A stretch of 64,000 bases of DNA, from NCBI GenBank assembly GCA_036365515.1, contig CM070876.1, positions 126,863,394-126,927,393 on the forward strand, in the 5' to 3' direction. Under the pieces are notes generated by a model. That model saw only the letters and a program-made list of their open reading frames with translations, was not told the DNA's origin and searched no databases. Below, in pieces: positions 13,501 through 54,909 of this stretch. Made by a program: the position numbers and the translations under genes. This stretch comes from Torymus aiolomorphi (lineage: Eukaryota; Arthropoda; Insecta; Hymenoptera; Torymidae). How positions within the stretch are numbered: the stretch's first letter is position 1; the number at the start of each line of letters is the position of its first letter.

Positions 13501-13753
13501 CGGAGGATGAGCCGCAGCGAGAGGTTGAGCGTCATCAGCTGCATTCCATATGTAGCGATGTTGGTTGCGTTGGCAGCATGGAGGTTGAGGCTGCTCCGCG
13601 TGAGCCGACGGCTCACTACCCTCCTGGGCAGAAGCGAGACGACCGAGCCAGAATCGACGAGGAACCTCAGCTGGGTGTTCTTATCGAAGACGTGTAGGCG
13701 ATTCTCCACAGGTGTGGCGCCGGCGGCAGCCGCCTGAACCGGCGCCGGCGCAG

Positions 13754-14851: not shown

Positions 14852-15012
14852 GCGGCGTGCGGCCACAAGTGTAGCGCCGCGTCGCTCCTTCGCTCCTTTG
14901 CTCCGCTGCTCCGATACTCCGTTGCTCCGAAGCTCCGCGGACTTGCTTGAGCTGCTCTCTGCTCACTGGTAACTCTCTTGCCGAGAAATGTTCGCAACTG
15001 TTGCACTCCACG

Positions 15013-22384: not shown

Positions 22385-22535
22385 ATGGAAAGAAATTAAA
22401 ACAATTTTAAAAAACTTTCCAGATGGAACAACTGTAAATGATATTCCAAACATTACAGTACGTTTATTTTATGCAAAATTTAAAATGTTACTTAATGATA
22501 TTGAAAAAAACCATATTTTTGGTAATGTTATATCT

Positions 22536-22568
<33 letters not shown>

Positions 22569-24860: not shown

Positions 24861-25161
24861 GTGTCGAGTTGCTAGTCTCGCATCAGGCGCCTCCCCAGGT
24901 GGCGGATAGGGGAAAGCTCGTCAGATATGAAGGGCACCGGGGAAATAAAATACCCGGGGTGGACCAAAACTGGCTAGGGGAAGGCATCCCAAATAACAAA
25001 CCAACCATGGACGTAGTGAATGAGAGATACGCATTACCCCAAGTGGGTGCCCTCAATGGAGGGGTTAATCCCACCACCGATTCCGATCGGGTGAAAGCCC
25101 CGGTGGTCGGTGCAGGCTCCACGGATTTTGGGGGGAGCCACTACACTATACCAGGAATAAA

Positions 25162-34363: not shown

Positions 34364-37147
34364 CTACCCCGCCTGGTCCTCTGTGAGACGGTTTTCTCTT
34401 CTTTCTTCTTCTCGCCTTATGGAGTTCAATCTGTCCACCACCTCGGTGACGAGACCAATCACAGCATCCCATCCTCTCTGTGAAGAGAGTAAGCATCTCC
34501 CGATGCCCTCGGGAGTTAGGGGGCCTTCCCATAAGGCCTGAAACCTTTCTCTCTCTTCCCGAAACCTAGGGCATACGAACAAAGCGTGTCCAACGTCCTC
34601 ATCACTTTCAGGACATGTTGGGCACTCCGCGCTTTTGTACACTCCAATTCTCTTCAGGTAGCTGCGAAAGCAGCCATGCCCAGTTAGTACCTGGGTGAGA
34701 TGAAAGGTCACGAGTCCGTGTCTCCTCTCCGTCCACTCCAGACATATGGAATAATGCGATGGGTCCACCGACCTTTATCTGCTATATCCCATCGGCGCTG
34801 CCACTCTTCGACAGTTTTCCTGGACCATCGGTTTTTGACGTGGTCCCTGATCAAGTTCGCCCTCCTCTCTTATCACTCCTCCACGATACACCTCAGCTCT
34901 CTCACATGCCATTAGGTCCAAGGGTGGCAGTCCGGTGACTACCGAGAGAGCGATGTCTGACACGGTACGGTAGGCGCAGGCCACTCTCAGCACGATTGCC
35001 CTGCAGGCCCTTCGGCAAGCTGCACCATAGCTTGGGTTACTACGTATAGCATTAGCCCAGATGGGGGCTCCGCATAGAATCACGGAATAAACCACCGATG
35101 AAAGAAGCAACCGTCGTGGCTGCTTCGGCCCTCCTATGTTTGGCATGATGCTTGCGAGTGCTCGAGCCACTTTTGATGCCTTTAATCCTGCGTTCCTAAG
35201 GTGGTTTTTGAACGACATCCGCGCATCTATTGTAACTCCTAGGTACTTCATGGTGTCCCCTGTCTTGATCTTCTCGTCGTTGACCGTGAAAGTGGCGTAG
35301 ACTCTCTTTTTTGTTCTGGCAATGAGCACTGCCTCGGTCTTTTCGGCAGCAAGACTGAGTCCATGGTCGCTCAGCCAATCTCCTACTACCTCGATTGCCG
35401 TATCTCCGAGGTATTGCACATCTTCGATGGTTTTCCCAACGATAATGAGAGCAATATCATCTGCGAAAGCTACTATCGACACCCCATGTGGGAGCAGTTG
35501 CCTAAGGAATCCGTCGTACATGATGTTCCAGATTGGGGATCCTAGTACAGAGCCCTGTGGCACGCCTCCTGTGATCTTATAAGAATGCATACCGTCGTCG
35601 GTATCATAGAGAAGCGTGCGGTCAGTTAGGTAACTCGAGATTACTCTTCGAAGGTACAGTGGCACGCTTAGGTCTTCCAATGCGAGCATGATTTTATCCC
35701 ACCTGGCCGTGTTAAACGCGTTCCGTACATCTGAACCAATTATAGCACACATGCGTTTTGTGCACCGGCTACCACTAACGGCGTTCTCAGCTACTGACAC
35801 CACCCTATCGATAGCATCGATCGTTGATCGACCCTTTCTAAAGCCGAATTGGTTATCAGACAAGCCGCCGATCTTTTGTATAGCTGCCTCCAGTCTGACG
35901 GATATGATACGTTCAAACAATTTTCCGACTATATCCAACATGCAGAGTGGTCGATACGCGGATGGTTCATCCGGGGGTTTATTTCCCTTAGGAAGGAGTA
36001 CCAACCTCTGTATCTTCCACTGTGTCGGGAATATTCCTTCACTTAGGCATGCATTGAAAGTGTCCTTGAATATGCAAGGAACTTCTAGAGCTGCAGTCTT
36101 TATAGCAAAACCAGGAACGCCGTCCCGTCCTAGGGCCTTTCTTATGGCAATCTTTTTTTGGCCGCTATCTTCACTTCTGATTCGGTGACTGCTGTTGGCT
36201 CGGCTGTACCGATTCTTTCCGTTAGACCAGTGCCATGTTGCCGTTCCTGGTGTTGTGGGAATAAATTTTGGACAACTCTATCAAGAAAGGTTGGACAGGA
36301 GGGAGCATTGGTGCCTCTGGGATTGATTTTATTTATGACCGTTTTGTACGGCCGTCCCCACGGGTCACTGTCCACTTCCTAGCAGAATTCCTGCCAACAC
36401 TTTCTTTTGGCTGTCTTGATGGCAATTTTCAGCTCTTTCCTCTTTTGCTCATATCTAGTTGTTAATTGATCATACAGCGGTCCACGAACTGCTCTTTGGT
36501 GCAGCCTCCTAGCACGAAGACACTCTTTACGTATTACCGCAATCTCCTTGTTCCACCAGTAGACTGGTAAGCGTCCCCGGTGGTTCGTCCTTGTGGACAT
36601 CAAGGCATCGCATGCCGCTGTGATGGTCTCCGAGAGGCTTTGAGCCTTAACCTCAGCTGTTCCTTCGACAGATGCTCCTTCCAAAAAACAGAGAAAAGCT
36701 TCCCTGTCGAAAGTAGCTGTTGCCCATTTCTCTCTCTTCGGCATCCGGGTAATATTCGCTCTTTTGCCTGTCGGGTGGAGCTGGTATGTGAAAGCTCGGT
36801 GATCGCTGCCAGTGTACCGATCACTGATTTGCCAGTATGAGCCTTCCCGACTTAATCTGGGGTCGACAAAGGTCAGATCTACTATGGAAGACTTTCGTCC
36901 TTTAGTGTAGGTCGGCTTTGTCCCTATGTTAGCAATCTCTAGCTCTAGTATCGCGAAGGTCTCAAGCAGTGCGTGGCCGCGGTTGTTCGTTTTCTTGCTT
37001 CCCCACTCAATTGCCCAAGCGTTAAAGTCCCCCCCGATTACGACTGGCAGCGTGGAGGTTCTAACGCTAGTGACGATAGCATCTAGGGATCTTTCGAACT
37101 CTTCTATTGAGTCGCTGGGTGGTAGGTAGCAGCTGTATAATCTTATA
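34364..37147 (-). pseudogene. LINE copy B ORF2, 3' part (end of EN, RT, zinc finger)
   Basis: Continues the endonuclease from the Gypsy insertion site (…LYSCYLPPSDSIEEFE, IGGDFNAW) through the RT with intact motif A (SDVRNAFNTARWDK) and FADDIALII, to the C-terminal CPTCPESDEDVGHALFVC finger. Breaks against copy A: an in-frame TAG at 36379-36381 (Glu in copy A); two extra A in an A-run near 36158; one extra A near 34835; and a 1-nt loss near 34738. Most changes are in short homopolymers. Confidence 0.88.
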
Positions 37148-37151
37148 CCGG

Positions 37152-38215
37152 TGTTACGTCCGGGTTACGTGACAATACAAGAAGAGAGAAAATGAAACTT
37201 CATTAGTCTAATGGCTAAAAGCGCATAATGTGACTTTTCCCGATTCGGACACAACGTGCATTGCTCCAGGATGGGACGGCACGTAGGAAAATGACACGGA
37301 CACGCGGTACGCCTCGAGACAGTGTGTAAAATTTTACTGACTTACCTTAGAATTTCCAACAGCCCTTGTGTGAATCTGTACTCCCGCCGTGACGCTTATA
37401 ATGATAGTGAACGGTTGCCGCTCTGTGGAAGTTTTGGTGTGAAGAACGGAGATACGGAGAGTTTAGGATTCTTATAATCTCGAAATAATGAATACTTAAT
37501 ATGGATTTAAACACAACTTAAACTTTATTAACTTGTCAGTACAAAACTAAGTAAAAATTACAGTGATGAGAGCTGATGTGAAGTCTACGCGAGTTGGCTT
37601 CTGAGTCAGTCATACCAGGAGTCTTCGTCCCCTTTTAAAGGTAAAAAGTTGTAAATCTTCCTGCCGTCGCCTTTTTGATTTGCCTAGGTGTTGCTGCCCC
37701 GCTTTTCTCGATGATCTTTGATGATTTCGGCGGCGCACCCTTTGAGAATATTCGGCGAGTTCGGATACATAAATTATTTTAGAATACGCTACGCATATTG
37801 GGTAGGAGTGAAGGGAAAGGACAAGAAAACTGACTCTAGCTTGATTCAGTATTGTGCGCTGGAGTACTAATGCTTACTCCTCTAATTGGCGGCGAATCTC
37901 TGATGCTTGCGTGGATGTGCGTTTTGGTAATAAAAAACGCATAAAACTGCAGCAGGGGAGTGGCACACACTTAAGAGAGAATGAAAGGAAAACTAAAGGA
38001 AACCGCGTCTTCGTGCCTCCGTTCGAGGATCTTTTTGGTAACTATTCTTTCTGGATGGCGGCATCTTTTGAGCGTTTATGCGTATCCCCCCTTTTTTTAT
38101 CGTGTGGGAGAATATGAAGCAAGCGGCAATGCAGCAGGTTCGTTGGGAAAGATGAAGAGAGGAAGGAAAACAGCGCACACCAGCAACCACATCGGCAACG
38201 TCGCACGACGCGACA
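37152..38215 (-). repeat. 3' LTR of the 16.1-kb Gypsy element
   Basis: 1064 bp; begins TGTTACGTCCGGGTTACG on the plus strand and ends ...GACGCGACA. Same length as the 5' LTR. Confidence 0.95.
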
Positions 38216-38230
38216 CCTCCCCCCTTCAGG
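38216..38230 (-). promoter_or_regulatory. Polypurine tract of the 16.1-kb element
   Basis: Minus strand CTGAAGGGGGGAGG directly before the 3' LTR start TGTCGCG. Confidence 0.75.
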
Positions 38231-38239
38231 TAATTCAGA

Positions 38240-38586
38240 CCCGGGGCTGAATTATCACATTGAATATTGGGATCGTCTCCAGTGTGTTGGCAAGATTTCC
38301 GCTTGCGAGTCCATCTGTTGTGGCCTACGTCGTTCATTAGGTACTCCGCAGGGTTCAGCGCACCTTGTAATTGATCTTGATGCCGGCTGAGTTGTTCCAC
38401 ATGAGTATCATTAACTGGTACCATTGGTCCCGAGGATGTGTGCGGAATCCTGGCATTCTGGGTCCATCGCTGAAGAAAGTCTCGTGCCCCTTCCGTAGTT
38501 GATAACCATAGCGTATCATTGCTTGACGTACACGTTCATCTAATGTTTGTAATATGTCTTGTTGTTGCTGCGAGGTTTGCTCCATG
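38240..38586 (-). pseudogene. Small accessory ORF next to the 3' LTR, unknown
   Basis: An ATG near 38586 opens MEQTSQQQQDILQTLDERV..., Gln-rich and probably helical at the start. The frame shifts near 38420, and the continuation in the other frame (NDTHVEQLSRHQDQLQ, then a Lys/Arg-Cys-rich tail) ends near 38250. Not recognised. It could be a remnant of an accessory gene between env and the LTR, or a chance open region. Confidence 0.35.
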
Positions 38587-38829
38587 TTGAAATTCTCCGT
38601 GACCACTTCTCTTCTGACGTCTCTTTCTTTACTGACCCCTCGTCCTTTAATGGAAACTGAAAACGACCTGCATCTTTCCTAGATGTGGTTGGTGGCGTAG
38701 CGGGGATAAGAACGTCCAAAAAGATGTGGGTTTTCCCTTTTTTTATCTGGTAGGGCGTGACACTGAAGGTAAAAGGAAGGTGGTAGTAAAAATGAGTGTC
38801 TAGGATAATGTGGGACAAAAAACAAAAAT

Positions 38830-39420
38830 AGGTAGTGACTTAGATATGCGTGCGTAGTTGATACGTATTTTCTTAGTCTTGATTACTTATTAATTATTAA
38901 TGACCATGGATTACTTGGATTTTAATTTGCTTACTTCATTTGTAGATAACTATCAAGTATTCGCTGTTAATTTCTAGTGGTTAAACACAGAATTATTTCA
39001 CCATTACACCTGTGGTAAAACACAAATTGTTCGTTGCTACACAGAGTGATTTAATACAAAATTAGTCGTTGTTATACATAGTGATTAAATACAAAATTAG
39101 TCGTTGTTATAAAAAATTATTTGTCATTACCTGTAGTGGTTAAATACAATTTGTTCGTTATTATACAAATTTTTTTTTTTTTTTTACATATCTTATTTTA
39201 AGTTCACAATACAATGTTGCATTTTTATCTGCAAGTTTTTTTTGGAATATATATATTTTACAACTATTTTAGAAATTATTTACCTAGATTACGACATTTG
39301 GTTGTGCTTACTTACTACGTTAATACCTACTGTTTCTATGTTTTGCTTAATTACAGAAATAAATGCTTGATTATACCATGCAAGAAAGTTACCTTGTTCT
39401 AAACCCCTTTTTTTTATCTT
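38830..39420. other. AT-rich spacer with ~40-bp direct repeats
   Basis: 38985-39165 has about four diverged copies of a ~40-bp unit with the words TAGTCGTTGTTATA and GTGATTAAATACAAAA. No gene. Confidence 0.55.
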
Positions 39421-39426
39421 TTGTTG

Positions 39427-41280
39427 CTAAAGGATATTGGAACCTGATTGATTACCGTTTGTATTTTCTTGTTGAACTATATATTCTTCTAATTTATTAT
39501 TTACGTATTCTGCGTCTAGCATATTAAATTCCCTTATCTCTACATTTCGAGACAAAACAGGACTTGGAGGAGGAGCTGGTGGTTCAACTTTAACCGGTGG
39601 AAAACTTGGTGTTGCATAAACATGCGGTGGGGGTGAAAAGTTGTATCGAATGGTCTGATTTAATGGTCCTATTGGCGCGTGTACCGGCTCCTTCTTCTCC
39701 TTTCCTGTTTTCTTTCGTTTACCCTGATACCACCTTATGGTAATTATAATTATGAGGATTACCGTAAATGTAATAATTATAACACTTAAATATACGTCGA
39801 CCTTGGTGTTATCAATACTAATTCTATGATAGGTAGATGGGGGTGCGGAATCCTTTTGTTCCCCTTCTATAATAACAAGTTGTAGAGGAGGTAAAATATA
39901 AACGTTGGATATCCTCATTAGATCAGAGGTACGGTACAATTTACTTTCAATTTCAACATAACATGGTTCAGGGATTATTATTATTCCCGATCGTCCTAAG
40001 GTCATAAATGAAAAATGCTCACCGCAATGTACCCGTACAGTTGTTGGCCGTGGGACTGAAAAGAACCATTGTCTGGGGTGAGCAGTTCTCACCAGCACCG
40101 CTTCATTGACCTCCTCATGCTGTATTTTACAAGTCTGATATGTAGTATATTTTGGATCCACGAGCAATTCGCTTTCACATTGAAGTTTTTTAATAATTGG
40201 AGTTTTTCGTTCACACAAATAGTTAGACCTTAAACCTACGCATTCCCTTAAATCGTCCCGGTTAAGAAAGACAAACTCCTTTTTATCTTTAGAGACAGCG
40301 ATATACTCGCTTCTAGGGCGAATGTAAACCGCTTTCTTTAATTGCGTTAATGATAATTGAAATACTGGTACGGCTATCATTCTGTACAGAAGATATGGCT
40401 GTTTTTCGAGTATAGGCACTGTAATCTGTAATATTACTCTTCCTTGTATCACGATTATATCTGTTCGGGTTCCCTCCTTTAGTGTAGCAGCATTTATTTC
40501 TTCTATGGTAATTGGCGCTCTTCCTGGAGTTTGATGTTCAGCAATTTTAATCGCCTTTTCCATCACTCTAGTTGGTAAGGTAAATCGACGTGCTTCCATG
40601 AATTTGACTATTTCTTTCGCAAGATAAATGTTTTCTCCTACTAGTCGTATTGCCTCGTTCAGAATGTTTTCTATTTGTGATTGTTTAATATCCGTTACTC
40701 CAAATTCCTGCTGTATAATTGTCAAATTACTTTTAAGTAATAACACGTCTGTTGAAAATTGTCGTCTAGCACGGTCTATTGCGTTGTCAGTTATTATTTT
40801 TCGTGTTTTATTTAGTACCATGCTTTCCTGATTCTTACGCCGCAATTGTTCGATATCCTGAAGAGTTTCGGCTGCTGTGTTGTTGCTTAGGTAGTCTTCG
40901 TTTTCTCCCTCCTGGAATGGCACTACCCATGGTGCATAAGAGTGTGCTAGATTCACATAGGCTATTTGTAACTGAGTCAGCTCTTCAATTTTCTCCTGGA
41001 AGACGTATTTTTGTTCAATCAGCACTGGATCCGACAATCTTGTATAAGTATCTGTTTCAGAGATATTTTTCATTGCTTTAATAAAAAAATCTGTTGTAGA
41101 AAATACTACTCGGGCGTTTACTGATGTTATTATCTTCCATTCTTGCTTAATGAAATCCAAACCCCTGTCTTGATTAAAAATAATGCCTGGATTGTTGCGC
41201 TGAAGGATACGCACTTCTGGTGATTTTATGGCTGCTATTAAAGCAAGGGTCATCATGAAGAACACTGTCTTTGTCATCAT
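39427..41280 (-). CDS. env: Errantivirus-type F-like envelope protein
   Basis: 617 codons, unbroken, ATG at 41278-41280. An N-terminal signal peptide (MMTKTVFFMMTLALIAAIKS) is followed by a long ectodomain with helical stretches and RARRQ near residue 175, a possible furin site. Then comes an errantivirus-like segment (VILQITVPILEKQPYLLYRM), followed by spaced cysteines (CVGLRSNYLC, QCESELL, TCKIQHE, VHCGEHF, PCYVEIE). One transmembrane segment (VYLSVIIITFTVILIIIITI) near residue 520 precedes a Pro-rich cytoplasmic tail of about 80 residues. The Cys spacing and the PIL...YR segment fit gypsy-type Env proteins related to baculovirus F. A classic fusion peptide directly after the cleavage site is not obvious. 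Confidence 0.65.
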   Translation of the reverse strand: MMTKTVFFMMTLALIAAIKSPEVRILQRNNPGIIFNQDRGLDFIKQEWKIITSVNARVVFSTTDFFIKAMKNISETDTYTRLSDPVLIEQKYVFQEKIEELTQLQIAYVNLAHSYAPWVVPFQEGENEDYLSNNTAAETLQDIEQLRRKNQESMVLNKTRKIITDNAIDRARRQFSTDVLLLKSNLTIIQQEFGVTDIKQSQIENILNEAIRLVGENIYLAKEIVKFMEARRFTLPTRVMEKAIKIAEHQTPGRAPITIEEINAATLKEGTRTDIIVIQGRVILQITVPILEKQPYLLYRMIAVPVFQLSLTQLKKAVYIRPRSEYIAVSKDKKEFVFLNRDDLRECVGLRSNYLCERKTPIIKKLQCESELLVDPKYTTYQTCKIQHEEVNEAVLVRTAHPRQWFFSVPRPTTVRVHCGEHFSFMTLGRSGIIIIPEPCYVEIESKLYRTSDLMRISNVYILPPLQLVIIEGEQKDSAPPSTYHRISIDNTKVDVYLSVIIITFTVILIIIITIRWYQGKRKKTGKEKKEPVHAPIGPLNQTIRYNFSPPPHVYATPSFPPVKVEPPAPPPSPVLSRNVEIREFNMLDAEYVNNKLEEYIVQQENTNGNQSGSNIL

Positions 41281-41320
41281 TCTTAAAAAGAAAAAAGAAA
41301 AAATGATTGCATATTATGTT

Positions 41321-41997
41321 TTACTCAGTACTCTCTCGAGGGCGTTTATGTGTCGTGGAAAGGTCGCAAGGCGGGGGTTCCATTGACTCTGAGGCATTTT
41401 CTAAAGCTCCTATTATTTCATTTAATATATCCTCGTCAGGGATATTGAGTTCTTCTAACGGGCTTATAACTGCATGGTTTCGAGTACTCTGCCTATCCGT
41501 AATAATCTCTCTCTCCTGCATTCTATATTCTCCGCGTTTCCTCTTATTAGATATGGATGCTTCTCGCCCCGGTGGTAGTTCATATAAATTTTCGCCAAGC
41601 TGGTGACGTACAAAATTAAATAAGGTAGTGTTGGCAGTATCCACCATATCATCGCTTAAAAATGCAACCACCGCGTTTCCTTCTGGAATCTTTAAACCCT
41701 TGATTTTTCTATCGCGCAGCCTTGTATCTCTACATCCAATCTCCCTTTATTTACAAATGTTTGTTTTACGTTTTGTTTCAGAAAAGTTATTGGGATGCGA
41801 CATAGTGAACATATTTTTACGTTGATTTTTATGCATGTGGCAATGGTAGCCCGTACCACTACTTGATTGTACAAGATGCGAGTGTATGGTCCAATTCTGA
41901 ACTTGTAGCAATAGAGACATATTCTTGCTCCCACATGTTCATAATATACTAATTCGCGGTTCCTTAGTGGTATCTCATTGTAGTTGGCTCCTTCCAT
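41321..41997 (-). pseudogene. Unknown accessory ORF region (Cys-containing, then charged)
   Basis: Two open pieces that abut. 41692-41997 starts at a good ATG (MEGANYNEIPLRNRELVYYE) and has a CLYC...C...CSLC pattern, possibly metal-binding. 41321-41671 in another frame holds a charged, Glu/Arg-rich stretch with KRKRGEYRM. The second frame is open upstream across the first stop, so they may be one gene of about 220 codons with a frameshift near 41700. Not recognised. It lies between the Gag-like ORF and Env. Confidence 0.5.
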
Positions 41998-42075
41998 TCT
42001 TTTAGAGGTGATGGGTTAAAAGTAACTAAAGAAGAAAGAAAAAATAAAAAAAAAGCGGATAAATGATAATGTTAA

Positions 42076-42453
42076 TCAAAGATGTATGGAATATCTATGT
42101 TTAATTTTTCGTAAGTCTTCTAAACTGGAATGAATACGTTTCGCGTGTCCCATCGCTTGATGTAGAGAAACGTAAATGTGCGGTTTACATATATAACGCT
42201 TAATCTCCGGACGCAGTCCGCGTAAAAATGTTTCGATAGCCATTTTTTCTCTAACTAACGAGGAATCGCATACCTCCCTAAACTCAACCTGTGATATTTT
42301 TCCTAAATTGTTGTATTCATGCAACATTTTTTCCATTCTACCGCAAAATTCATAAAAATCCTCATCACTTCTTTGAGCTGCCCATGCAAGTTTCATTCTT
42401 AAAGTCATTAGATTAGAAAACATGTTATGTTTTTCGGAGGGAGTTAGAGGCAT
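42076..42453 (-). CDS. Second Gag-like ORF (capsid C-terminal-like)
   Basis: 125 codons from ATG 42451-42453 (MPLTPSEKHNMFSNLMTLRM). It has the layout of the C-terminal half of a Gypsy capsid: ...DEDFYEFCGRMEKMLHEYN, then IETFLRGLRPEIKRYICKP, then SLHQAMGHAKRIHSSLEDLR. The element's own gag has a similar FIRGL...A...AIEIERDF stretch at about 50950-51060, so this is a second, diverged Gag piece far downstream of pol. It has no zinc knuckle. It could be a captured fragment of another element or an accessory Gag; a role in interference is only speculation. Confidence 0.55.
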   Translation of the reverse strand: MPLTPSEKHNMFSNLMTLRMKLAWAAQRSDEDFYEFCGRMEKMLHEYNNLGKISQVEFREVCDSSLVREKMAIETFLRGLRPEIKRYICKPHIYVSLHQAMGHAKRIHSSLEDLRKIKHRYSIHL

Positions 42454-42660
42454 TTTCCTTTATGAAAATAAAAACAAAAGTAATAAAAATGAAAAAATCT
42501 TGCTTACAAGACGGCTCAATCTACTTATTACTACGGTAATTACCCTCTTCTTTTTTTTATTAAACTATTATTACAAAAGAATTAAACAAAATTACATTTA
42601 ATAGATTTACATAAGCGCTACCATTAATCTAATTTCTTATTATTTATTTACTTTAATCAA

Positions 42661-44762
42661 TTATTCATTGTCATTTGTACGATTATTCCGCGGTGGTAAG
42701 GATGGGATATCTGGGTCAGTTGCTAAAGTTGGATAAATTCTTGGTATTGTTGGAGCAGTACAGTTTACTTGTACTCCCTCCCCTCTCGCCGGAACCTGCA
42801 CCACCGCGTGCTGGCTTTGAAATTTCGAAAAATCAGAAAATGACGGAGGCGGGGCTAGTGGTGTTGTTGGTGGAGCGCTCGGTGGTTTTTTTACAGAGCT
42901 ATATTCTTCTTGAGCCCGCTTCTTTTCTTCCTTTCGAGTGGGCTTATGCCATGCAGTGTGCAATAGCAATTGCGTTACCGAATTCCAAATGGCTCCTATA
43001 ATATGAATTGACCAGCCATATAAACTATATAATGCATATCCATGCAGAATTGTATCAATTAAAAATTTTATTACACGACCTATCATAATTATTCCTATTA
43101 TTCCTGCACTTATAGAACCGAAAGATAGAAATTGACCCCATATTTTTTTCCATGTATCGTTCGCAAGTGCAGTTAATGCTTCCTCATCGAACAAGCGTGC
43201 TATAGACATACCATTTTTGTCCGTTGATCTGCCTGACATACCCATGGCTAAAGAATTCAACATTGCACCTCGCTCGACTGGAAACATTAAATGATGTCTT
43301 AACGCTTGTATGTCTGACTGTGTGTAAATACCGCTTTTTGCTAATTCGAGAGGTTCAGTATAATTCCAATTGTTTTTTGTGGCTGGTTTGAGGATAGCGG
43401 GTTTAATTCCTTTTGTGGTACCATGAGGCAGTACCGTGTACCAATCTTCGCCTAGTAGAAACATAGGTGGGATCAATGGGTTGCAAGTAGTTTCAGTACC
43501 GTATTGCTTTAAAATATGTGTTTTAGGAGATAAAAAATAATTTTTTTCGTCTTTTACTACAGGCAACTCTTGATAGCACCTTGGTGTTTCTCGTCTTTGA
43601 ACATCTATTTGTACACATTTCATTAAATGAACTACTTCCCCGCTACCAAACCCATATAACCACTTTTTTCATTATTTGATAGGCGAACAGATCTGGTTCG
43701 GTACTTGCGATACTTAATGCGTTCGCTATAACTCTTTTTCTAATTCGCATTTTTGCATAATTAAATCTCGATATAAGCGCTTTAATTCCCCTTTTATGTG
43801 TTTTTCGACATAAACAAATTTAGAATTAACATATGCAAAGATATCCAAGTTATGTACTGTAGGATGTTTAATCTTTCCAAATGCTTCTATAGCAGGACCC
43901 TCAAAGAAAAATAATTTAGGATGTTCTGTGCGTATTAAGTCATATGAGCAAACTGAAATAGTACCGACTGCCGTAAATGCAAAAGTTATTTCGCTTGACT
44001 CCATTACATAAACTGGATGTTTCTCATTTCCTTCCTCTATTATTTTATTTACATACCCCGCGTATAATTCTGAATACTTATGTTCTTCGCATGATGACAC
44101 CGGTAATGGTTCCCAGAAAGCGTACCCTGCTTCAATATCTATACATATGTCTTCATTAAATTTGCAACGAGTACCTGATTTTAGTATAACCTCATTAGCA
44201 TTTAAATTCACAGGAGTATAATAATCTTGTAAGGTTATTGTGACATAACCCATGACTACCGCATCATCGAATACTCCATACGGGTCGGAGTATGTACCTG
44301 GATTACTACAATCTCCCGCCTGATCTATTTTCCCCACAAAAGTCATTGGATAAACGATAGTCCCATTATGTTTTAAATTTGAGATAAGCTCGTCGCGAAC
44401 TCTATGGCTGCGATGCACATGCATTCGCCGACATTCTTCATTAGTAATTTCGTCTAGAAACTTAACTTCCCCCTATTCTTGTCTTTTCGATGCGAGAATG
44501 CCCCACAATATGTAACTGAACGCTTAATTTCTACCTTACATAGTCTTACATGAGTGCTTCCGAAATCGTTCAATTGTAATAATCTAACATAAACCTTGGT
44601 AGTATTGACCACGGGCTCCGCTATGTCACATTCCCCGACGTTTATTAATGAAAATGTGGTGAGGTTCGAGACTTGCTGAGAGCAGTCGTAACCAATTATG
44701 GTATTAACTGTTTTTGATGTTAGCAGCAATGCTAGTACACAAAAAACGATTTTCATCTGCAA
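42661..44762 (-). pseudogene. Chuvirus-like glycoprotein gene, frameshifted
   Basis: Three open pieces in order: 44454-44762, 43726-44424 and 42661-43623. They have the order expected for one protein of about 700 residues. The N-terminus is a signal peptide (MQMKIVFCVLALLLTS), then VGECDI, LLQLNDFG, YCGAFSH. Middle: FNEDICIDIEAGYAFW. C-terminal part: FLSPKTHIL, SGIYTQSDIQALRHHLMFPV, a hydrophobic segment (SAGIIGIIMIGRVIKFLI), YGWSIHIIGAIWNSVT and a basic, Pro-rich tail. From memory this pattern matches glycoproteins of Chuviridae, whose genes are known to have been captured by insect retroelements. Breaks: a frameshift near 44440-44460 and at least two more between 43620 and 43740. The parts are described only, not joined. 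Confidence 0.55.
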
Positions 44763-45164
44763 ACATTACAAAGTATTAATCTTTTTGATTTCAAGAAAAG
44801 AAAATGGCAAAAATGCTCTATTTATCATAAAGAAAAAGAGAACATCATAGAAACTGCACTAATGTTAAAACAGTAACATATATCAAAATTAACTTAAAAA
44901 AAATAATAGTTGGTTTAAAATAATAAAATTAATAGTATTACTAGTTTTCTCTTTTTCGCATTTTTGCTGTTTATTAGTTATAATATATTTTGCGTTATAT
45001 TTATAGTTATAATAATATTTTTATAGTTATAATAATATATTTTGCGTAGTAAATATTAACCTACTACAACGTGCCATTATCAAAGAAATCGTGCTTATTA
45101 TCCTTATTTATATATAATGTAACTTAGAAAGCAAGCGTAGGATTAGGTATGTTAAAGCAACGAT
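44763..45164. other. AT-rich spacer between pol and the first glycoprotein
   Basis: About 400 bp with no open frame of note. A repeated TATAGTTATAATAATAT near 44980-45040 is the only structure. Confidence 0.5.
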
Positions 45165-48100
45165 TTAAGCTTGTTTTTGCTCTACATGTGATTTGCGCAG
45201 GCGATTAATGTGCACTATTTTACTTTTAGTACTACTTAATTGTATCCTCACATTTCCATTTACAGAAACGTCTAAAACTAAATACGGCCCCGTATATTGA
45301 CTATCAAATTTGTGTGGTTTCGGTCCCTTTTGCAACCACACGTAGTCCCCAATTTTTAATGTTAAATGATTTACTTTTCTGTCATAGTATTTTTTGATCT
45401 TATTTTGGCTCGCAATAAATTTTCTCTTGCTATATTTTGCAAGTAGTTTATTCGTGTTATGAGAGTTTCCATATAGCCCTTATAAGTAGGCGCTAGATCC
45501 TCACTTTCTATCGGCTCACTACCTGGCGTTCGAGCTAAACGACCAAATACTAATTCGAAAGGTGAGTGCCATGTTGCCTCACTTATGCCTGTGTTAAAAT
45601 TAAATGTTGCTAACTCTATATAGTCATCCCAATCCGACTTATTTTCTTGCACGAAAAATTTTAAAAACTCGATAAGACTTGAATGTGATCTCTCCAAGGA
45701 CCCATTTGTTTGTGGATGAAAAGCCGTAGTGTTGACTTGTTTGATTCTAAATCTTTTTGCCACTCGTTTCATTAATTTGCTCATAAAATTAGTGCCCTGA
45801 TCCGTTAAAATAACTCGCGGTGCCCCGAACACACATATGACCCTCTTAATTAGACTGTTTGAAACGTCTATTGCTGTAGTTTGTGCTAATGGTTCCGCTA
45901 TTGCAAATTTCGTAAATAAATCTTGGAAGGTTAATATATACTCATTGCCTTTATTAGATCTAGGCAATGGCCCTACAATATCCATACTAATGCGATCCAT
46001 CGCATGTGCCCCAGAGTTAGTAATAATCATTGGCACACGTGTTTTTACCCTGACTAATTTTTTTAATTGACACTGCACACATTTTCGAATAAAATCCTGT
46101 ACATCTTCTTTTAAATTTTCCCAGTTGTGAGCTTGTTTAATTCTTTTGTATGTCTTAGTAACTCCCCTATGTCCGCCTATTACCGAGCTGTGTGCTTCTT
46201 GCATAATGGGGTCCCTTTCCTCGAGGGGAGGATACCTGACTATCCCTAAACACACTACTAGTTTGATGGTACTCTTAGAAAATGGATCTCTTAATTTTCT
46301 TATTACTTGTTCCCATTCTAAATTTTCTATTATTTCCGTTTTTGCTATACTTATCGACCGCGCGTCGATTTTGTTTAAGATTGGTAGTAAATTAGTACAA
46401 AGTAAACTTAAATTATTGTTTATTATGCTCAAGCCTACTCTGTTTTGCGTACGTAGTGGCATGACTATGTGTATTTTAGAATTTGTTTTTATAACTTCTG
46501 GTATTCCTATTGTTAAATTTTTAAAACGTGGGAGCTTGTTCTGTAATTTTAATTGCATGGCACCGTCGTCGCATGGTTCACCTTCGGATGTAACAAAATA
46601 CAAATAATTATCTTTTCTCATAAATAATTTTTCACGGCAGAAAATAGTTGAATGAGTCGGGTTTAAATTTTCCAACATAATTTCATCTTCCATCTCCCCG
46701 TTTTCTTTCGATAGTTTGTCTCTCTCCTCTTCCTCCGAGAGAAGGTTACTCTTATTCATGTTGGTCTGTGGGTCACCCCTACTTCGTGTTTCGTTCAGTA
46801 TGCTATTGTCTTCCTCGCCTTCGGTTCCCGCTGATGCGGTAATATGTTGTGCATCTCTATCGCTGACCTTTTCCTTTTCTATTACGCATTTATTTTTATC
46901 GTTTTTCGGCAGTTTTTTCTTTTCTGCTTCAATGTTTTCTTTGTTCCGCTCACGGGCTATGCGTCCCCTCGTGACCATATTATGAACGCACTCCTCCCCA
47001 GTTTGTTCGGTGACCGCCTCTTTTTCTTGCTCTTGCTCTTTTAGTTTTTCAGCCAGGGCAGCACTTCTTGTGACAATTAACACTCGATCCACCGGATTTC
47101 GAGAGAGAGCATCCGCTACATTCATTCTCCCTGGTCTGTATATCACCTCAAAATCATATTCGGCCAGTGTTAAACGCCACCTCATAACACGTGAATTTGG
47201 ATCTTTATGTGTCTGCATCCATACTAGAGGGCGATGGTCAGTAATTACATAGAATTTTCTCCCAAAAAGATAAGGTCTAAAATGTTTTATAGAAAATACC
47301 AACGCTAGTCCCTCTTTATTGAATGTATCCCATCTTCCCTCTACCTTTGATAACACACGTGAGACATATGCAACTGGTTGATCATAGCCTATTTTACCCT
47401 GAGATAAAATTCCTCCTATCGCATAACCCGATGCGTCTGTAGTTAGGTTAAAAGGTAGTTCGAAATTTGGAAAAGCTAATATAGGTTCTTTACATAATTT
47501 ATCACGTAGAATTTCAAAAGCATACTGCGTATCATCGGTCCATTTAAATTCCATTTCTTTTTTTAATAAGTTTGTGAGAGGTTTAGCTATTTTTGAAAAT
47601 TGATGAATGAAGCGTCTGTAATAGCCTGCTAAACCTAAAAATTGTTTAATATTTTTTGCGTTTTTTGGCACTGGATAATTCCGAACAGCTTCCAGCTTCC
47701 TTGGATCTGGCCTTACGCCCTCTGCGCTTATTAAATGCCCTAAATAAGTTACTTCTTTTTTGAAAAATTCACATTTTTCCGGTTGTACTTTTAATACCGC
47801 CTTTCGTAATCTGATGAATAATCTTTCTAATCTTTGTATGTGTTCAGCAAACGTGCGTGAGTAAACAATTATATCGTCAATAAAACAAAATAATTCCTTA
47901 TTAACTAAACCCGCGAGCGCTATAGATAGTGCTCTTGAAAATGTCGCCGGCATAGTTCTTAGCCCAAAACTACCTCGATTAAAGTGATAGAGCCCACCAT
48001 TTGTCACAAAAGCTGTTTTGTGGCGGTCGCGCTCATCGATTTCTAACTGATGGTAGCCTGATGCGAGATCGAACACAGAGAAGTATTTTGATCCTCCCAA

Positions 48101-50350
48101 CTGGTCAAGTATTTCGTTAATATTTGGAAGAGGAAATTGATCATCGAGTGTTTTTTCGTTTAATTTTCGATAATCAATTACCATTCTGTACTTTCTATTG
48201 CCATGTATATCTTCTTTCTTTGGTACTAAAAAACAAGGACTAGAGTATGAAGATGTAGAAGGCTCAATTATGCCATTTGCCAATAACTCTGCAACTTGTC
48301 TTTCTATCTCGTTTTTATGCACTGGTGGCAATCGAAACTGTTTTGAAGTAACTGGCACTTCATCTACGGTTGGGATAGTTAATTTTAATATAGGTGTAGC
48401 CGTTAATTTTTCACCCGGAATGTGAAAAATATCGCTAAATCTTTCTATTAATTTTGTTATCTCTGTACGCTCTTCTGACAGCAAATGTTCAAAACGCAAT
48501 AAAGATTTAATCTGACCGACGCGTTCGTTTGACAAAACTCTTTCTACCCGACAAATTACATGTTTCTCAATTTTTGAATTTGTAGATTTCCCTTTAAGAA
48601 GTTTTTTCCACTTTTCTATTACTTCTAAACAATCATCAATCAGATATGTGCACGATGAGTCGTCGAATGATCTAAGCTCAAAATGCGTTTTTAAATCGCG
48701 AAACATTTTGTAGTGCTCGTTAAAAAACTCATTCTTATTTATTATCTTCAACAATATTTCAATTAATATTTCTATATCTTCGGCATTATCATATAAAATA
48801 CTGTAATTTGCTTGGCTTTGATTGAGTAACTTTTGTAACATTATCAATCTTTCAAAAATGAACTCCTCATTAATTCCTTGATTGTTACTTGTATTAAAAT
48901 TTGCTTTGTCTTTCTTTTTCTTAGAATTATCTCCAGAATTTAATTTAGCATTTATATCCAAACTTGATTCCTCTTTCCCTTTTGAGTTAGAATTTTTATT
49001 TTGTTCTGAATTTCTTTTCGAATTTTCGTTTGCACTCGAGTTTGTTTTAATCCAAGACGAAAAATTTTCTTTAGAGTTTGATTTCAAATTTTCTTTTGAA
49101 TTTGAAAAATTTTTATTAGAATTTGGATTTGAGCTAGGATTTTTATTAGAGTTCGCACTCGAGTTAGGATTTTGATAAAAATTCGCAATTGAGTTAGAAT
49201 TTTGACAAGAATTTGCATTTAAGTTAAAATTTTGATAAGAATTTGTAATTGGGTTAGCGTTTTTACAAGAATTTGTACTTGTATTGAGATTTTGACAAGA
49301 GTTTGTACTTGAGTTAGGATTTTGACAAGAATTTTTATTCAAGTTAGAATTTTGATAAGAATTTATGATTGAGTTAGAATTTTGACAAGAATTTGTTCTT
49401 GCATTAGGATTTTGACAAGAGTTTGTAACTGAGTTAGAATTTTGATTTACTTTGTGATTTTCTTTTGAATTTAATAAATTAACGTCTTCATTAGAATTTG
49501 ATATAAAAGTAGAATTTAATTTAGAATTTTCATTTGAATTTGATCTAAAAGTAGAATTTGTTTTCGAATTTTCGTTTGAATTTAACAAACTAAATTTCAC
49601 ATCTCTCAAGTGGAGATTTTCGTCAGCGTTTGAGCTAACTCCAATAATTATTTTTAAATTTTTATAAGAGTCCAATTTTAATGTGGCATTTTGATTTGCA
49701 AAATTTATTTCTTTTATATTATGTAAACTTAAAATCTCTTCTGTTTCAAGTTTAGCTTGCTCCCGGTTGCTGGTGACCGTTCCTATTTCGATAAAGTTAC
49801 TTTTGACCTGTGTTGGAGTTTGGGGTTCCACGGGAAAATTTATGAGTCGAAAAACTTCCTCTTTATTCTGACTTAGAATTTTTTTTATAGCTTCAGCCGT
49901 ATCTTCAGTTTTCTTTTCACTCCTATTTTTATGTTTTATAATTTCCGAGTATACTTCCTCCGCTGTATCATTCTGGTCTACTTTGTGTGCGTAATTAATG
50001 CGTTTACTAGAATTTACTAAAGTTTTTTCATTTTTTTCATAGAACGGAATAGACAAATCACCAATGATCAGTTGTTTAGTTCCATAGTCGATTTTTGTTC
50101 CTAACTGAGAGAAAAAATCACTCCCTAGTATCCATCTTCGTTTATTGGAAAATCGTTATTCACAATATGAAATTCAATGGCGAATTTAAAAAAATATAGT
50201 TTTATTTTACCTAAAGTAAAAATGCTACTGTCTGTTATGCCTTTCAATTCCAAAATTTCATTTTTATTAATTGCTGTTTTTTCAGCTAAATTGTTCTTTT
50301 TTAACAGATTTGGTCCCGCGCCTGAATCTAATATTAAAAACATTTCTCTG
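45165..50350 (-). pseudogene. pol: pol of the 16.1-kb element (PR, Asn-rich insert, RT, RH, IN)
   Basis: Protease with FLILDSGAG (about 50320-50343), broken by a 1-nt loss near 50130. The long frame 45371-50056 (1561 codons) carries the rest. A 300-residue Asn/Ser-rich stretch comes first, then RT with FIDDIIVYS (about 47872-47885), RNase H (TTDASGYAIGG near 47420, TDHRPLVW), and integrase with the HHCC finger (CVQC near 46090) and D,D-35-E: Asp 45980-45982, Asp 45800-45802, Glu 45692-45694, spacing 59 and 35. A second 1-nt loss in an A-run (plus-strand T at 45390-45395) shifts out the GPY/F module (YTGPYLV), which then stays open to a stop at 45165. RT and IN are gypsy/17.6-like. Confidence 0.9.
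49160..49445 (-). repeat. 30-bp minisatellite in pol encoding Asn-rich decapeptides
   Basis: About nine in-frame copies of a decapeptide of type N-S-C/Y-Q-N-x-N-x-x-x (for example NSCQNPNSST, NSYQNSNLNK). It is flanked on both sides by further Asn/Ser/Lys repeats (about 48900-49600). It lies between protease and RT, a place where Gypsy polyproteins normally have only a short linker. Confidence 0.85.
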
Positions 50351-50399
50351 TTATTACTCGGATTACTAAAGGAAATTATTGGTGATTTGCTATTTTCGC

Positions 50400-52095
50400 T
50401 TAACCGAACGTGTCTTTGGATGATTGCGGATTGTTCTGCTTTTCGTCTGGGCGCTTTACTAAGTCCGTCTCCCGTCTCGCGCCTTGTTGACGGGGACTCT
50501 GACTGTTTCCCGCCTGTACTTGTGTATTTCTCTGACTATTGTTGTATGCGAGTTTTCGACAGTTTATTATTTCATGCCCCTCTTTTTTACAATATCGACA
50601 AAATAATTTCGTTAGTTCATTATTTGAAAATGTGGCGTTCTGTCTTTGTACATATTGGTCCCCCGTATTTCGTGGAGCCTGCGCGGGTCTATCCTGTGTC
50701 CATTGTGTCGGCGCGCCCGATCTCCGCGGGTCCACCCAGGTAGGTAATGGTTGCCTATTTTGGAAGTTTGGTGGTTTCCTGTGTATTGCCAGCAGTTTAA
50801 AGCAATATGACCTCTTCTGTTACATATTTGACACGTTTCTATAGTTTTACTATCCACTAAATATATTTTATCTTCTCTTGAAGAATTAGTTTTCTTTTCT
50901 GTAATTATTTTAATAGTGTCATTTAATTCTTCTCATAACATGCGAAGTCCCTTTCGATTTCTATTGCTTCCGCAGTGGCCTTTTCTAAAGTTCTTGCTTC
51001 TCCCATACGTGCTTTAATTACCCAATGTAGACCTCGAATAAAAAATTTTACCAAGTCTTTTTCCAATGCTTTTTGAGAATCTCGCGTAGATCTCTTCTCA
51101 CGATGTTCTGACTCAGTAATTTCGTGTCCTATCGCACTCTATTTGAAAAACTACTACGCTTTCATCGCGTTTTTCTTTTACACTACCTAATTCCCCGTGT
51201 AGTTGGTGATACGTTTTAGCCGAACCGAAAATATTGTCGAAAAAATTCGCTATATCATTTATTGATTCAAATATCTTTTTTGCTGCACTTTTTAGTGCCT
51301 CGCCGTATAAACGTAATTTTATTAATTTTGCTAAATCTACCTCAAATTGTTCTGGGATAATGCTACATGCTTCCCGACAGCCTTGTATAAATTGTGTTAA
51401 AGGAATATTTACTCCATTATATTTCGGAATTAATTCTAACGCGTCCTTAATTGACAACGGCCTAACTTGCCCTAGGGTACTGTTTCCGGAAAAATTATTC
51501 ATCCTTTGTGACAAGTTATACTTTGGATTTATCAAATATGTATCCGAATTAAATGGTGTGCTGTATTTAAGCTGATCGTTAGGTAAAAAAAAAAATTTTC
51601 GCCGTTTCCTGAACTTATTTTATTTTTTTCCTCGTCTGATGATTTTTGTAAAGATGTTTTATTATTTTTTAATATGGAATAAAATTTTGTGTTGTCGGCC
51701 GTAATTTCTGGATTATCGAAACTTATGTTGTTGATTATTAATTCCGATTTTGCTGTTACAGCCCCCGTGATATATTCGATAATATATTTTGGATCGATTC
51801 TTTGATTTATTAAATCTCCGAGCGCTTCAATTAAATATTTATCTTTACAACATTCTATTATATCGTCTTTACTAACATGATCTGTTAAAATTTCAATAAG
51901 TGATTCTATTCTTTTATCCTTTGTTTGCACTTCCGCGTCTAGAAAACCGCTTTCGTTACGGCTTTTAAAGAAATCTAAAATATTTGTTAGCGTTTGTCCC
52001 TCTGGTAAGTTAGGTTTTAGTTTTAACGCCTGTTTTAGCAGAATAGCCTCTGCTTCTTCATTACGCCTATCGTCACCTTCCTTGGCTACCGACAT
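50400..52095 (-). pseudogene. gag: gag of the 16.1-kb element, several frameshifts
   Basis: Open pieces in order: 51532-52095 (ATG at 52093-52095, MSVAKEGDDRRNEEAEAIL), 51113-51535, about 50865-51112, 50612-50857, 50400-50735. The second piece has a gypsy-type capsid start (PLTQFIQGCREACSIIPEQF, LAKLIKLRLYGEALKSA). The end has two zinc knuckles, CQICNRRGHIALNC and CRYCKKEGHEIINC, then a polar tail before the protease. Breaks: one at an 11-base A-run (51585-51595, plus strand), one near 51115, others near 50930 and 50700. Function in the family: assembly of the particle and RNA packaging. Confidence 0.8.
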
Positions 52096-52140
52096 ATCAT
52101 TCAAGCCCGCAAAACAAAAACTATCTGCCTAATCCTTTCT

Positions 52141-52157
52141 AAGGAGGGGCCCCCAAT
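52141..52157 (-). promoter_or_regulatory. Primer binding site region of the 16.1-kb element
   Basis: Directly inside the 5' LTR the minus strand reads TTGGGGGCCCCTCCTT. TGGGGGC matches the start of a tRNA-Pro primer site, but the match does not extend further, so the primer tRNA is not settled. Confidence 0.45.
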
Positions 52158-53221
52158 TGTTACGTCCGGGTTACGTGACAATACAAGAAGAGAGAAAATG
52201 AAACTTCATTAGTCTAATGGCTAAAAGCGCGTAATGTGACTTTTCCCGATTCGGACATAACGTGCATTGCTCCAGGATGGGACGGCAGGTAGGAAAATGA
52301 CACGGACACGCGGTACGCCTCGAGACAGTGTGTAAAATTTTACTGACTTACCTTAGAATTTCCAACAGCCCTTGTGTGAATCTGTACTCCCGCCGTGACG
52401 CTTATAATGATAGTGGACGGTTGCCGCTCTGTGGAAGTTTTGGTGTGAAGAACGGAGATACGGAGAGTTTAGGATTCTTATAATCTCGAAATAATGAATA
52501 CTTAATATGGATTTAAACACAACTTAAACTTTATTAACTTGTCAGTACAAAACTAAGTAAAAATTACAGTGATGAGAGCTGATGTGAAGTCTACGCGAGT
52601 TGGCTTCTGAGTCAGTCATACCAGGAGTCTTCGTCCCCTTTTAAAGGTAAAAAGTTGTAAATCTTCCTGCCGTCGCCTTTTTGATTTGCCTAGGTGTTGC
52701 TGCCCCGCTTTTCTCGATGATCTTTGATGATTTCGGCGGCGCACCCTTTGAGAATATTCGGCGAGTTCGGATACATAAATTATTTTAGAATACGCTACGC
52801 ATATCGGGTAGGAGTGAAGGGAAAGGACAAGAAAACTGACTCTAGCTTGATTCAGTATTGTGCGCTGGAGTACTAATGCTTACTCCTCTAATTGGCGGCG
52901 AATCTCTGATGCTTGCGTGGATGTGCGTTTTGGTAATAAAAAACGCATAAAACTGCAGCAGGGGAGTGGCACACACTTAAGAGAGAATGAAAGGAAAACT
53001 AAAGGAAACCGCGTCTTCGTGCCTCCGTTCGAGGATCTTTTTGGTAACTATTCTTTCTGGATGGCGGCATCTTTTGAGCGTTTATGCGTATCCCCCCTTT
53101 TTTTATCGTGTGGGAGAATATGAAGCAAGCGGCAATGCAGCAGGTTCGTTGGGAAAGATGAAGAGAGGAAGGAAAACAGCGCACACCAGCAACCACATCG
53201 GCAACGTCGCACGACGCGACA
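52158..53221 (-). repeat. 5' LTR of the 16.1-kb Gypsy element
   Basis: 1064 bp, about five mismatches to the 3' LTR (for example GCGCGTAATG versus GCGCATAATG). A minus-strand TTTAAAAGG near 52637-52645 is a possible TATA box for element transcription. Confidence 0.95.
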
Positions 53222-53225
53222 CCGG

Positions 53226-53463
53226 ATACTTCAACCCAGGTGAATTTGGGCTGAAGGACGTCCATTTTTTTGGATATGTGGAGTTCTCCGCATACCCAGA
53301 TGGCCGCCGTGCTGGCACGATCCCTTACCCAGTTTGGTTCATTTTTGTCCCTGTACTGCTCACTGATGATTACTATGTCCGCCTTCTCCTCCCGGATCAA
53401 TTGGGGCAGCAAGTCATGGGCTACTGCACAGTGGTTCATGTTGATTTGAAGCACTTTAGCCAT
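53226..53463 (-). pseudogene. LINE copy B ORF2, 5' part (endonuclease start)
   Basis: Starts at the ATG overlapping the ORF1 stop (MAKVLQINMNHCAVAHDLLP) and runs to QPKFTWVEVSG, where the Gypsy element enters. It continues at 37147. Nearly identical to copy A. Confidence 0.88.
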
Positions 53464-54604
53464 CGTTGTTTGTTGCTACGACCTCCATCGTTACCTGCTC
53501 GTTGTTGGTCGGGCAGTTCACTGCCTTGTGACCCTCGGTTTTACACTTGAAGCACAGGGACGACCGGTCAATTACACTCTTACAATTCCGTGCCAGGTGT
53601 CCGATTTCATGGCACTTGAAGCAACGTGTCACTGTTTCACGTAACCGGACCCGGCAATTGACCCATTCTATTCTGAGTTTTCTAGTTTCCAGCAGCTTTT
53701 CTGTCATTGCTACAGGTAGCATAACGCTGGCTGCTTGAGTGCCACTGTAAGACGCCCGGAGTCTAACATCCCCAGCGGTTATCATTTCGGGGCCGATAAT
53801 TGAAGTGATCGCCTGTGTTACCTCTTCTGCTGTAGTTGTCTCGTCCAAATCTTTGATTTCGATTGTCTCCTTATGGGACAACGTTTGTACTATCGCTGAC
53901 CCTGCAAGGGTAGACGAGACCAATGTCTGCAGTTCATGCGACACGATGTTTGGTTTGTCTAGCTCCAAAAGCAACTCTCCTGCCTTGGTGCGCCTGATGC
54001 GCGTGACCCTTTCTTGCAGTGCCTTCAACTCAGGTGCCCCTTTGAGAGTTCCCAGGATATCGGCGTAGGTGGTCTCACCGCACCTTCTTATTTTGAAGGC
54101 ATCAGATCGAGCTGGCCTCCGCCTAACCGTGGTATGTGCCTGCACTACTTTCTCCTTGCGGTCAGTCTTGAGTCTCTCATATCTTCTGCGTTTTCCTTTA
54201 CTTACGACGGTTGCCCAGTCGGTCTGTCCTATCTGAGCTTCCGGTTTTTTTGCAGGTATCTGTGAGGAAGCACGTATCTTCGCCTTCTTTTCGTTTGGCT
54301 CTGGTGGCGGTGAGGGGCGGTTACGTTCGGTGTGTACTACCGACGCCTTCCCTTTCCGAAAGAGCGGCGATGTTTGGCTTGTTCCGTCCTTGGTAGGTCT
54401 GGTAGCTTGTCCAGACTCATGACTTTTTCGACTTTTGACGAATTCTTTTAAGGCTCTTTGGGTAGTCTTCGCCATTGACTTGAGCTCATTGTGAATGTTC
54501 TTTTTATCTAGAATAAAGTCCACCAGAGCCTCTACCTTTGTTTGTAGGGTTCGGAAGGCAGCTGCATCTGCGCTATCCTGGCTTACTTCGTCTTCTTCTT
54601 CCAT
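53456..54604 (-). CDS. LINE copy B ORF1 (Gag-like)
   Basis: 382 codons from ATG 54602-54604, unbroken, same length as in copy A and only a few residues different. Two CCHC knuckles at the C-terminus (CFKCHEIGHLARNC, CFKCKTEGHKAVNC). In this copy the upstream frame is also open to near the 5' end (an alternative TTG at 54898), so an N-terminal extension cannot be excluded. In copy A that region is out of frame, which favours the ATG. Confidence 0.88.
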   Translation of the reverse strand: MEEEDEVSQDSADAAAFRTLQTKVEALVDFILDKKNIHNELKSMAKTTQRALKEFVKSRKSHESGQATRPTKDGTSQTSPLFRKGKASVVHTERNRPSPPPEPNEKKAKIRASSQIPAKKPEAQIGQTDWATVVSKGKRRRYERLKTDRKEKVVQAHTTVRRRPARSDAFKIRRCGETTYADILGTLKGAPELKALQERVTRIRRTKAGELLLELDKPNIVSHELQTLVSSTLAGSAIVQTLSHKETIEIKDLDETTTAEEVTQAITSIIGPEMITAGDVRLRASYSGTQAASVMLPVAMTEKLLETRKLRIEWVNCRVRLRETVTRCFKCHEIGHLARNCKSVIDRSSLCFKCKTEGHKAVNCPTNNEQVTMEVVATNNDG

Positions 54605-54909
54605 CTTATTCCTGGTATAGTGTATGTGACTCCCCCCAAAATCCGTGGAGCCTGCACCGACCACCGGGGCTTTCACCCGATCGGAATCGGTGGTGGGATT
54701 AACCCCTCCATTGAGGGCACCCACTTGGGGTAATGCGTATCTCTCATTCACTACGTCCATGGTTGGTTTGTTATTTGGGGTGCCTTCCCCTAGCCAGTTT
54801 TGGTCCACCCCGGGTATTTTATTTCCCCGGTGCCCTTCATATCTGACGAGCTTTCCCCTATCCGCCACCTGGGGAGGCGCCTGATGCGAGACTAGCAACT
54901 CGACACGGG

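Follow-up and report, generated by a model that had tools for sequence, protein, structure and literature searches.

In a window of 64,000 nucleotides from the torymid wasp Torymus aiolomorphi (the whole stretch that was analysed: assembly GCA_036365515.1, contig CM070876.1, positions 126,863,394 to 126,927,393), a retroelement of 16,070 bp bounded by long terminal repeats (LTRs) lies on the minus strand at positions 37152-53221. This element contains two envelope-type genes from different protein families, one for a chuvirus-type glycoprotein and one for an F-type envelope protein (F-Env), and we consider it probable that it is a Gypsy-type, retrovirus-like element which moves as one 16-kb unit, with the chuvirus-type glycoprotein acting in membrane fusion and F-Env retained beside it. 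From pol onwards the gene order is pol, chuvirus-type glycoprotein, open reading frame (ORF)-A, ORF-B and F-Env, all on the element strand (Table 1).

Two envelope-type genes within one LTR-bounded unit

A previous reading made from the letters alone (henceforth the sequence-only reading) had placed the borders of the element at 37152 and 53221 (16.1 kb), and the LTR pair with the flanking CCGG confirms both. The two LTRs aligned without gaps, with 1061 of 1066 positions identical (99.5%) and 5 mismatches, where the 1066 positions include two CC bases adjoining each LTR and the LTR proper measures 1,064 bp. The mutation rate of insects is about 3e-9 per site and year, at which the LTR divergence gives, as a rough figure, an insertion somewhat under a million years old. 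When the two flanks were rejoined with a single CCGG, an ORF ran across the joint in the endonuclease frame of a long interspersed nuclear element (LINE); the downstream part of this frame matches Exo_endo_phos_2 (E 1.9e-25), the next ORF matches RVT_1 and the upstream ORF carries a zinc knuckle. Judged by these domains, the sequence hosting the insertion is a LINE, and the open frame at the rejoined empty site, together with the CCGG, therefore indicates that the element entered it cleanly, as one unit of 16,070 bp. The interrupted LINE itself (34364-37151 and 53226-54898, minus strand) consists of a zinc-knuckle ORF1 and an endonuclease-reverse transcriptase (RT) ORF2, and ORF2 also shifts frame between endonuclease and RT.

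The gene that stands directly behind pol consists of three pieces, which match the Pfam family PF24664 (Monjiviricetes_fusion), which we take to be the family of chuvirus glycoproteins, at 96, 228 and 296 bits (~620 bits summed; E values of 1.6e-27, 1.7e-67 and 4.3e-88) and which cover positions 2-98, 115-343 and 382-632, and so most of the length, of the 653-position profile. At 42661-44762 the sequence-only reading had described a signal peptide and a C-terminal hydrophobic region, and a signal-peptide-like start (piece 1) and one membrane-span region (piece 3) are present; these positions do not form a single ORF, and at least three frame changes occur along them. In a sequence search of PDB no match was found for piece 2, and the match of piece 3 to glutathione S-transferase kappa (E 0.001) was regarded as chance and rejected.

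The F-Env gene is open throughout, and its product matches Baculo_F at 68.3 bits (cut-off 24.1; E 6.7e-19), which makes it an F-type Env in the sense used for errantiviruses. The match is limited to residues 277-445 (profile positions 297-469 of 609) and leaves the N-terminal half unmatched; the same core also matches PDB entries 9w4c and 9w4d/9w4e (‘fusion protein’; E 4e-5, residues 270-419). The features previously listed for 39427-41280 were all recovered, namely a hydrophobic N-terminal start, spaced cysteines (six, all within residues 347-440), one membrane span (492-520) and a Pro-rich tail. A furin-like RARR occurs at residues 170-173. The 20 residues past it have a mean hydropathy of 0.3, contain a glycosylation sequon and belong to a stretch that is unaligned to F proteins, and the 15-residue segments of highest hydrophobicity in the ectodomain start at 457, 274-277, 297 and 422, none of them near RARR. 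By these measures the stretch after RARR appears unlike a fusion peptide, and F-Env has no recognisable fusion peptide.

The absence of visible similarity between the two glycoproteins also held: when they were compared by blastp and phmmer, with the three-piece glycoprotein set as the only database, the best blastp alignment spanned 15 residues (E 0.01) and the best phmmer score was 0.7 bits. The profiles place the two in separate Pfam families (PF24664 and Baculo_F), which argues against a single family for both. The proposed arrangement, in which the foreign glycoprotein occupies the env place behind pol and the F-type Env lies downstream, is thus found within one LTR-bounded unit.

The remainder of the element is consistent with a Gypsy-type ancestry. 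TG...CA LTRs, a target duplication within the 4-6 bp range and a polypurine tract are features of Metaviridae (Gypsy), as is the order RT, RNase H, integrase, for which the pol ORF matches RVT_1, RT_RNaseH, Integrase_H2C2 and rve; on these grounds the element, with its Pol, is Gypsy-type (Metaviridae). A Pfam search of pol at E up to 1 returned six families, none of them specific to BEL/Pao, the superfamily to which an Anakin-type Pol would belong. Visual inspection shows a protease-like DSGA stretch directly upstream of the pol ORF, in a different frame, and a TGPYLV stretch in the integrase end. Errantiviruses, as defined in the part of PMC12440569 used here, have an integrase without a GPF/Y motif, and the GPY-type motif speaks against membership of that clade. 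With this integrase end, and with an F-Env that lacks a recognisable fusion peptide, the errantivirus identity implied by the sequence-only reading is not established. None of the Gag pieces of the element matched a Gag family in Pfam. The presumed primer-binding site bears, we assume, an imperfect resemblance to tRNA-Pro. About a dozen 30-bp tandem units (49079-49473, minus strand) lie within pol and encode an Asn/Ser-rich spacer from the protease-like stretch to RT.

Splice-like signals and small open reading frames

The sequence-only reading made no mention of the LINE in which the element sits, of the signals resembling splice sites or of the ORFs that separate the two glycoprotein genes, nor did it note that gag, pol and the first glycoprotein change frame. 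We scored all 765 AG sites from the start of pol to the 3' LTR as splice acceptors, and the two best sites of all stand just before ORF-B and F-Env, with that of ORF-A in sixth place (Table 1). When other ATGs served as controls, 1 of 215 scored as well as ORF-B, 4 of 215 as well as F-Env and 8 of 215 as well as ORF-A, and 2 of 100,000 sets drawn at random from these controls attained the acceptor score summed over the four ORF starts, figures that are descriptive and not a test. Ranks 3 and 4 lie upstream of the doubtful ORF-C (exon start of rank 3 at 38762). A consensus-like splice donor is present in the 5' LTR, and a scan of 53221-50000 for the donor pattern gave further sites at 52079 and 50213. 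The copy of the donor in the 3' LTR (37345) sits 184 nt past the only AATAAA of that LTR (37529), and RNA would therefore carry the donor only near its 5' end. Overall, these signals suggest that the downstream genes are expressed by retrovirus-like alternative splicing from one LTR donor to several acceptors.

ORF-A and ORF-B occupy 1.4 kb between the glycoprotein genes. Dinucleotide shuffles of this stretch never produced a 125-codon ORF (0 of 500) and produced an ORF of at least 101 codons in 3 of 500 cases. ORF-A and both frames of ORF-B have a higher codon score in their own frame than in the other two, and the second frame of ORF-B (0.169) exceeds all six antisense ORFs. ORF-C was rejected as a gene, since its own frame is not the best of the three. 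Against the capsid C-terminal part of the element's own Gag, ORF-A gave a 29-residue local alignment with a score of 44, which was equalled in 7 of 1000 shuffles; against the N-terminal Gag piece 355 of 1000 shuffles did as well. Blastp of ORF-A against the capsid C-terminal piece gave nothing notable, and in Pfam and PDB ORF-A found weak scattered matches only (best E 0.025 and 0.026, respectively). Profile and database searches returned no match for either frame of ORF-B. Structures predicted from single sequences had a mean predicted local distance difference test score of 45 for ORF-A and 37 for the first frame of ORF-B, and neither value was high enough to justify a fold search.

Table 1. 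Features of the 16-kb element and its insertion site, in window coordinates.
Feature	Positions	Strand	Remarks
Target-site duplication CCGG	53222..53225	.	other copy
5' LTR	52158..53221	-	1064 bp, TG...CA
Consensus-like splice donor, 5' LTR	52343..52356	-	AAG/GTAAGTCAG; intron start 52351
Presumed primer-binding site	52143..52155	-	2 nt past LTR; from sequence
gag	50400..52104	-	capsid-like and CCHC-like stretches named by eye; several frames
pol	45371..50056	-	RT, RNase H, integrase; 1561-amino-acid ORF
Integrase end with GPY-type motif (by eye)	45168..45479	-	frame differs from pol ORF
Acceptor-like sites before glycoprotein	44757..44841	-	ranks 9, 29, 30 of 765
Chuvirus-type glycoprotein (PF24664)	42661..44762	-	three pieces
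Acceptor-like site	42458..42482	-	4 nt before ORF-A; rank 6/765
ORF-A	42076..42453	-	125 amino acids; faint Gag capsid C-terminal resemblance
Acceptor-like site	42026..42050	-	28 nt before ORF-B; rank 1/765
ORF-B	41321..41997	-	two overlapping frames; 101 amino acids with two CxxC pairs, then frame with basic stretches
Acceptor-like site	41282..41306	-	1 nt before F-Env; rank 2/765
F-type Env (Baculo_F)	39427..41280	-	617 amino acids, intact
Possible ORF-C	38355..38585	-	76 amino acids, weak
Polypurine tract	38216..38226	-	abuts 3' LTR; from sequence
3' LTR	37152..38215	-	1064 bp; 5 differences from 5' LTR
Target-site duplication CCGG	37148..37151	.	one copy

Several other mobile elements share the window. 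A second, different Gypsy-type element (10485-14962, minus strand) encodes RT, RNase H and integrase, has an upstream ORF that matches DUF7041, and coincides with a GC content of 0.56-0.60 (10001-14000), well above that of its left-hand surroundings; its Pol is 33-40% identical to that of the 16-kb element over the longer aligned pieces. Helitron pieces with Helitron_like_N and PIF1 helicase matches lie at 20067-23252 and 30873-31865 (plus strand). Another LINE (25069-29285, plus strand) contains zinc knuckle, endonuclease and RT, with RT split over two frames. At 58541-58972, inverted repeats of 63-99 nt that are 83-94% complementary lie one within another and are perhaps a foldback element.

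Proposed working and rival explanations

Frame changes number up to six from gag to pol, one near the end of pol and one in ORF-B, with none in F-Env, and some of those from gag to pol may be natural frameshifts. With frames broken in gag, in pol and in the first glycoprotein, this copy is probably replication-incompetent as it stands, unless the changes are assembly errors; that frame changes occur in several of the window's elements could point to such errors.

As a working scheme we envisage that unspliced RNA would yield Gag and Pol, and that spliced RNAs would yield the chuvirus-type glycoprotein, two accessory proteins (ORF-A and ORF-B) and F-Env. The glycoprotein, with its place directly behind pol, would serve as the membrane-fusion protein, and F-Env, in which the membrane anchor and F core are kept and no fusion peptide is recognisable, would have been retained as a second surface protein that might act in attachment, superinfection control or fitness. 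A bolder proposal, drawn by analogy and one that we hold only tentatively and regard as somewhat doubtful, is that the element represents a lineage of complex-retrovirus layout, with a single LTR donor, several acceptors and two accessory genes, in which the glycoprotein took over fusion and a non-fusing F was kept, in an independent repeat of the replacement of F by GP64 in baculoviruses.

A number of observations weigh against a fusing glycoprotein beside a retained F-Env, and against the expression scheme proposed for them. With at least three frame changes, the first glycoprotein may be decaying and not in charge, whereas the intact gene is F-Env; the F-like protein of group I baculoviruses lacks the furin-like motif that F-Env still has, and the fusion peptide of F-Env may lie elsewhere. 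Of the eight top-scoring acceptors, those ranked 5, 7 and 8 fall within pol or the glycoprotein, where no acceptor would be expected, and match no gene start, the acceptors before the glycoprotein rank only 9-30 and are equalled by 37 of 215 control ATGs, and the splice score was written after the tracts had been noticed by eye. The codon score of ORF-A (-0.014) is below that of four of six antisense ORFs, and that of the first ORF-B frame (0.023) below three of six, although this score is weak for short pieces, since the first glycoprotein piece is also low (-0.030). Single-sequence queries of viral contigs and prokaryote genomes returned no relatives of the element, a result that says little, as only close relatives are detectable in this way.

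The main rival to our proposal reverses the roles: fusion would be the work of F-Env, with the chuvirus-type glycoprotein a decaying passenger. The contrast between 617 open codons and a gene with at least three frame changes speaks for this rival, and so does the furin-like RARR. Yet gag, pol and ORF-B are frame-changed as well, so that the damage is not peculiar to the glycoprotein, and indel errors of assembly would look identical; moreover, the glycoprotein pieces still match PF24664 strongly, and nothing resembling a fusion peptide follows RARR. We therefore judge this rival rather unlikely, while taking it seriously. It is also conceivable that the element is a one-off chimera, made by template switching between two element RNAs or by insertion of a fragment, which exists only at this locus and whose genes never worked together. 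Only one copy was seen, and the faint likeness of ORF-A to the C-terminal part of the Gag capsid is what one would expect if the region from gag to env of another element had been left over. Against such an accident, ORF-A, ORF-B and F-Env each begin with a start codon just behind a strong acceptor-like site of their own on the element strand, no shuffle produced an ORF as long as ORF-A, and the presence of an LTR pair and a target duplication means that the complete set has retrotransposed at least once; we consider a chance chimera unlikely.

A third explanation is that two elements are nested, one glycoprotein having been brought by a separate, later insertion. The unusual length of the element would accord with nesting, and we searched 38216-45370 for repeats of at least 22 nt (the rest of the element for repeats of at least 60 nt) and found a lone inverted repeat, imperfect and AT-rich, with 22-nt arms at 39111-39132 and 43525-43546 that are 82% complementary. 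Its arms lie inside the glycoprotein gene and downstream of F-Env and so bound neither gene, and it is weak enough to have arisen by chance. Within 38216-45370 this was the sole inverted repeat of at least 22 nt, only short direct repeats were present, no inner terminal repeats flank either glycoprotein gene, and all genes share one strand, with acceptor-like sites in the intergenic stretches. A nested second element was therefore rejected as very improbable and is largely refuted in this copy, as is the idea that one glycoprotein belongs to an insertion with its own borders.

Comparison with known systems

Retroelements become infective when they capture envelope genes from viruses, and captures of one such gene are known. 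If the element does move as one unit with two unrelated envelopes, it would represent an envelope replacement in progress, and whether an old envelope protein is kept for another task would become testable. Among the matches listed in our literature search, as judged by title and start of abstract, we found no retroelement with both envelope kinds, and we claim novelty for such an element only weakly. In the parts of the cited papers on which this section draws, Gypsy elements with an F-type Env, chuvirus glycoproteins in BEL/Pao elements and Gypsy elements with type III glycoproteins are already known.

Errantiviruses and related insect endogenous retroviruses (PMC12992720) share with the present element a Gypsy-type Pol, an F-type Env downstream of pol and the expected production of Env from spliced RNA. 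They differ in having one env, whereas here a second, unrelated glycoprotein and extra ORFs are present, together with a GPY-type integrase end and an Env with no recognisable fusion peptide; the Env motifs most strongly conserved in the Drosophila elements include the cysteines and the membrane span as well as the furin site and the fusion peptide (PMC12992720). Anakin, a BEL/Pao element of mosquitoes (PMC7642597), likewise carries a chuvirus-type glycoprotein within an LTR element but has a Pol of the other superfamily, and the main text of its description contains neither ‘baculo’ nor ‘F protein’. Gypsy elements with type III fusion glycoproteins (PMC13172572) resemble the present one in combining Gypsy with a glycoprotein kind shared with RNA viruses, but none named in the portion used here has both glycoprotein kinds, and the meeting-report summary of Chary & Hayashi eLife 2025 mentions no double envelope (PMC12859917). 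Troyka (PMC12440569), with its 3-bp duplications, CG...CG ends and no envelope, was dropped as a comparison. Whereas Dezordi et al. 2023 report, in the text available, that they found no Gypsy element which had clearly captured a chuvirus-type glycoprotein (PMC10084718), the glycoprotein here lies inside a cleanly bordered Gypsy-type unit.

The closest precedent is provided by the group I alphabaculoviruses, in which a foreign fusion protein also coexists with the F-type protein already present: fusion is carried out by GP64, whereas the F-like remnant has lost this activity yet still affects pathogenicity (PMC4864199, PMC4741009). These are DNA viruses, and GP64 is related to the glycoproteins of thogotoviruses. 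Their F-like protein has lost the furin site, whereas in the F-Env of the present element a furin-like motif remains and no clear fusion peptide is found.

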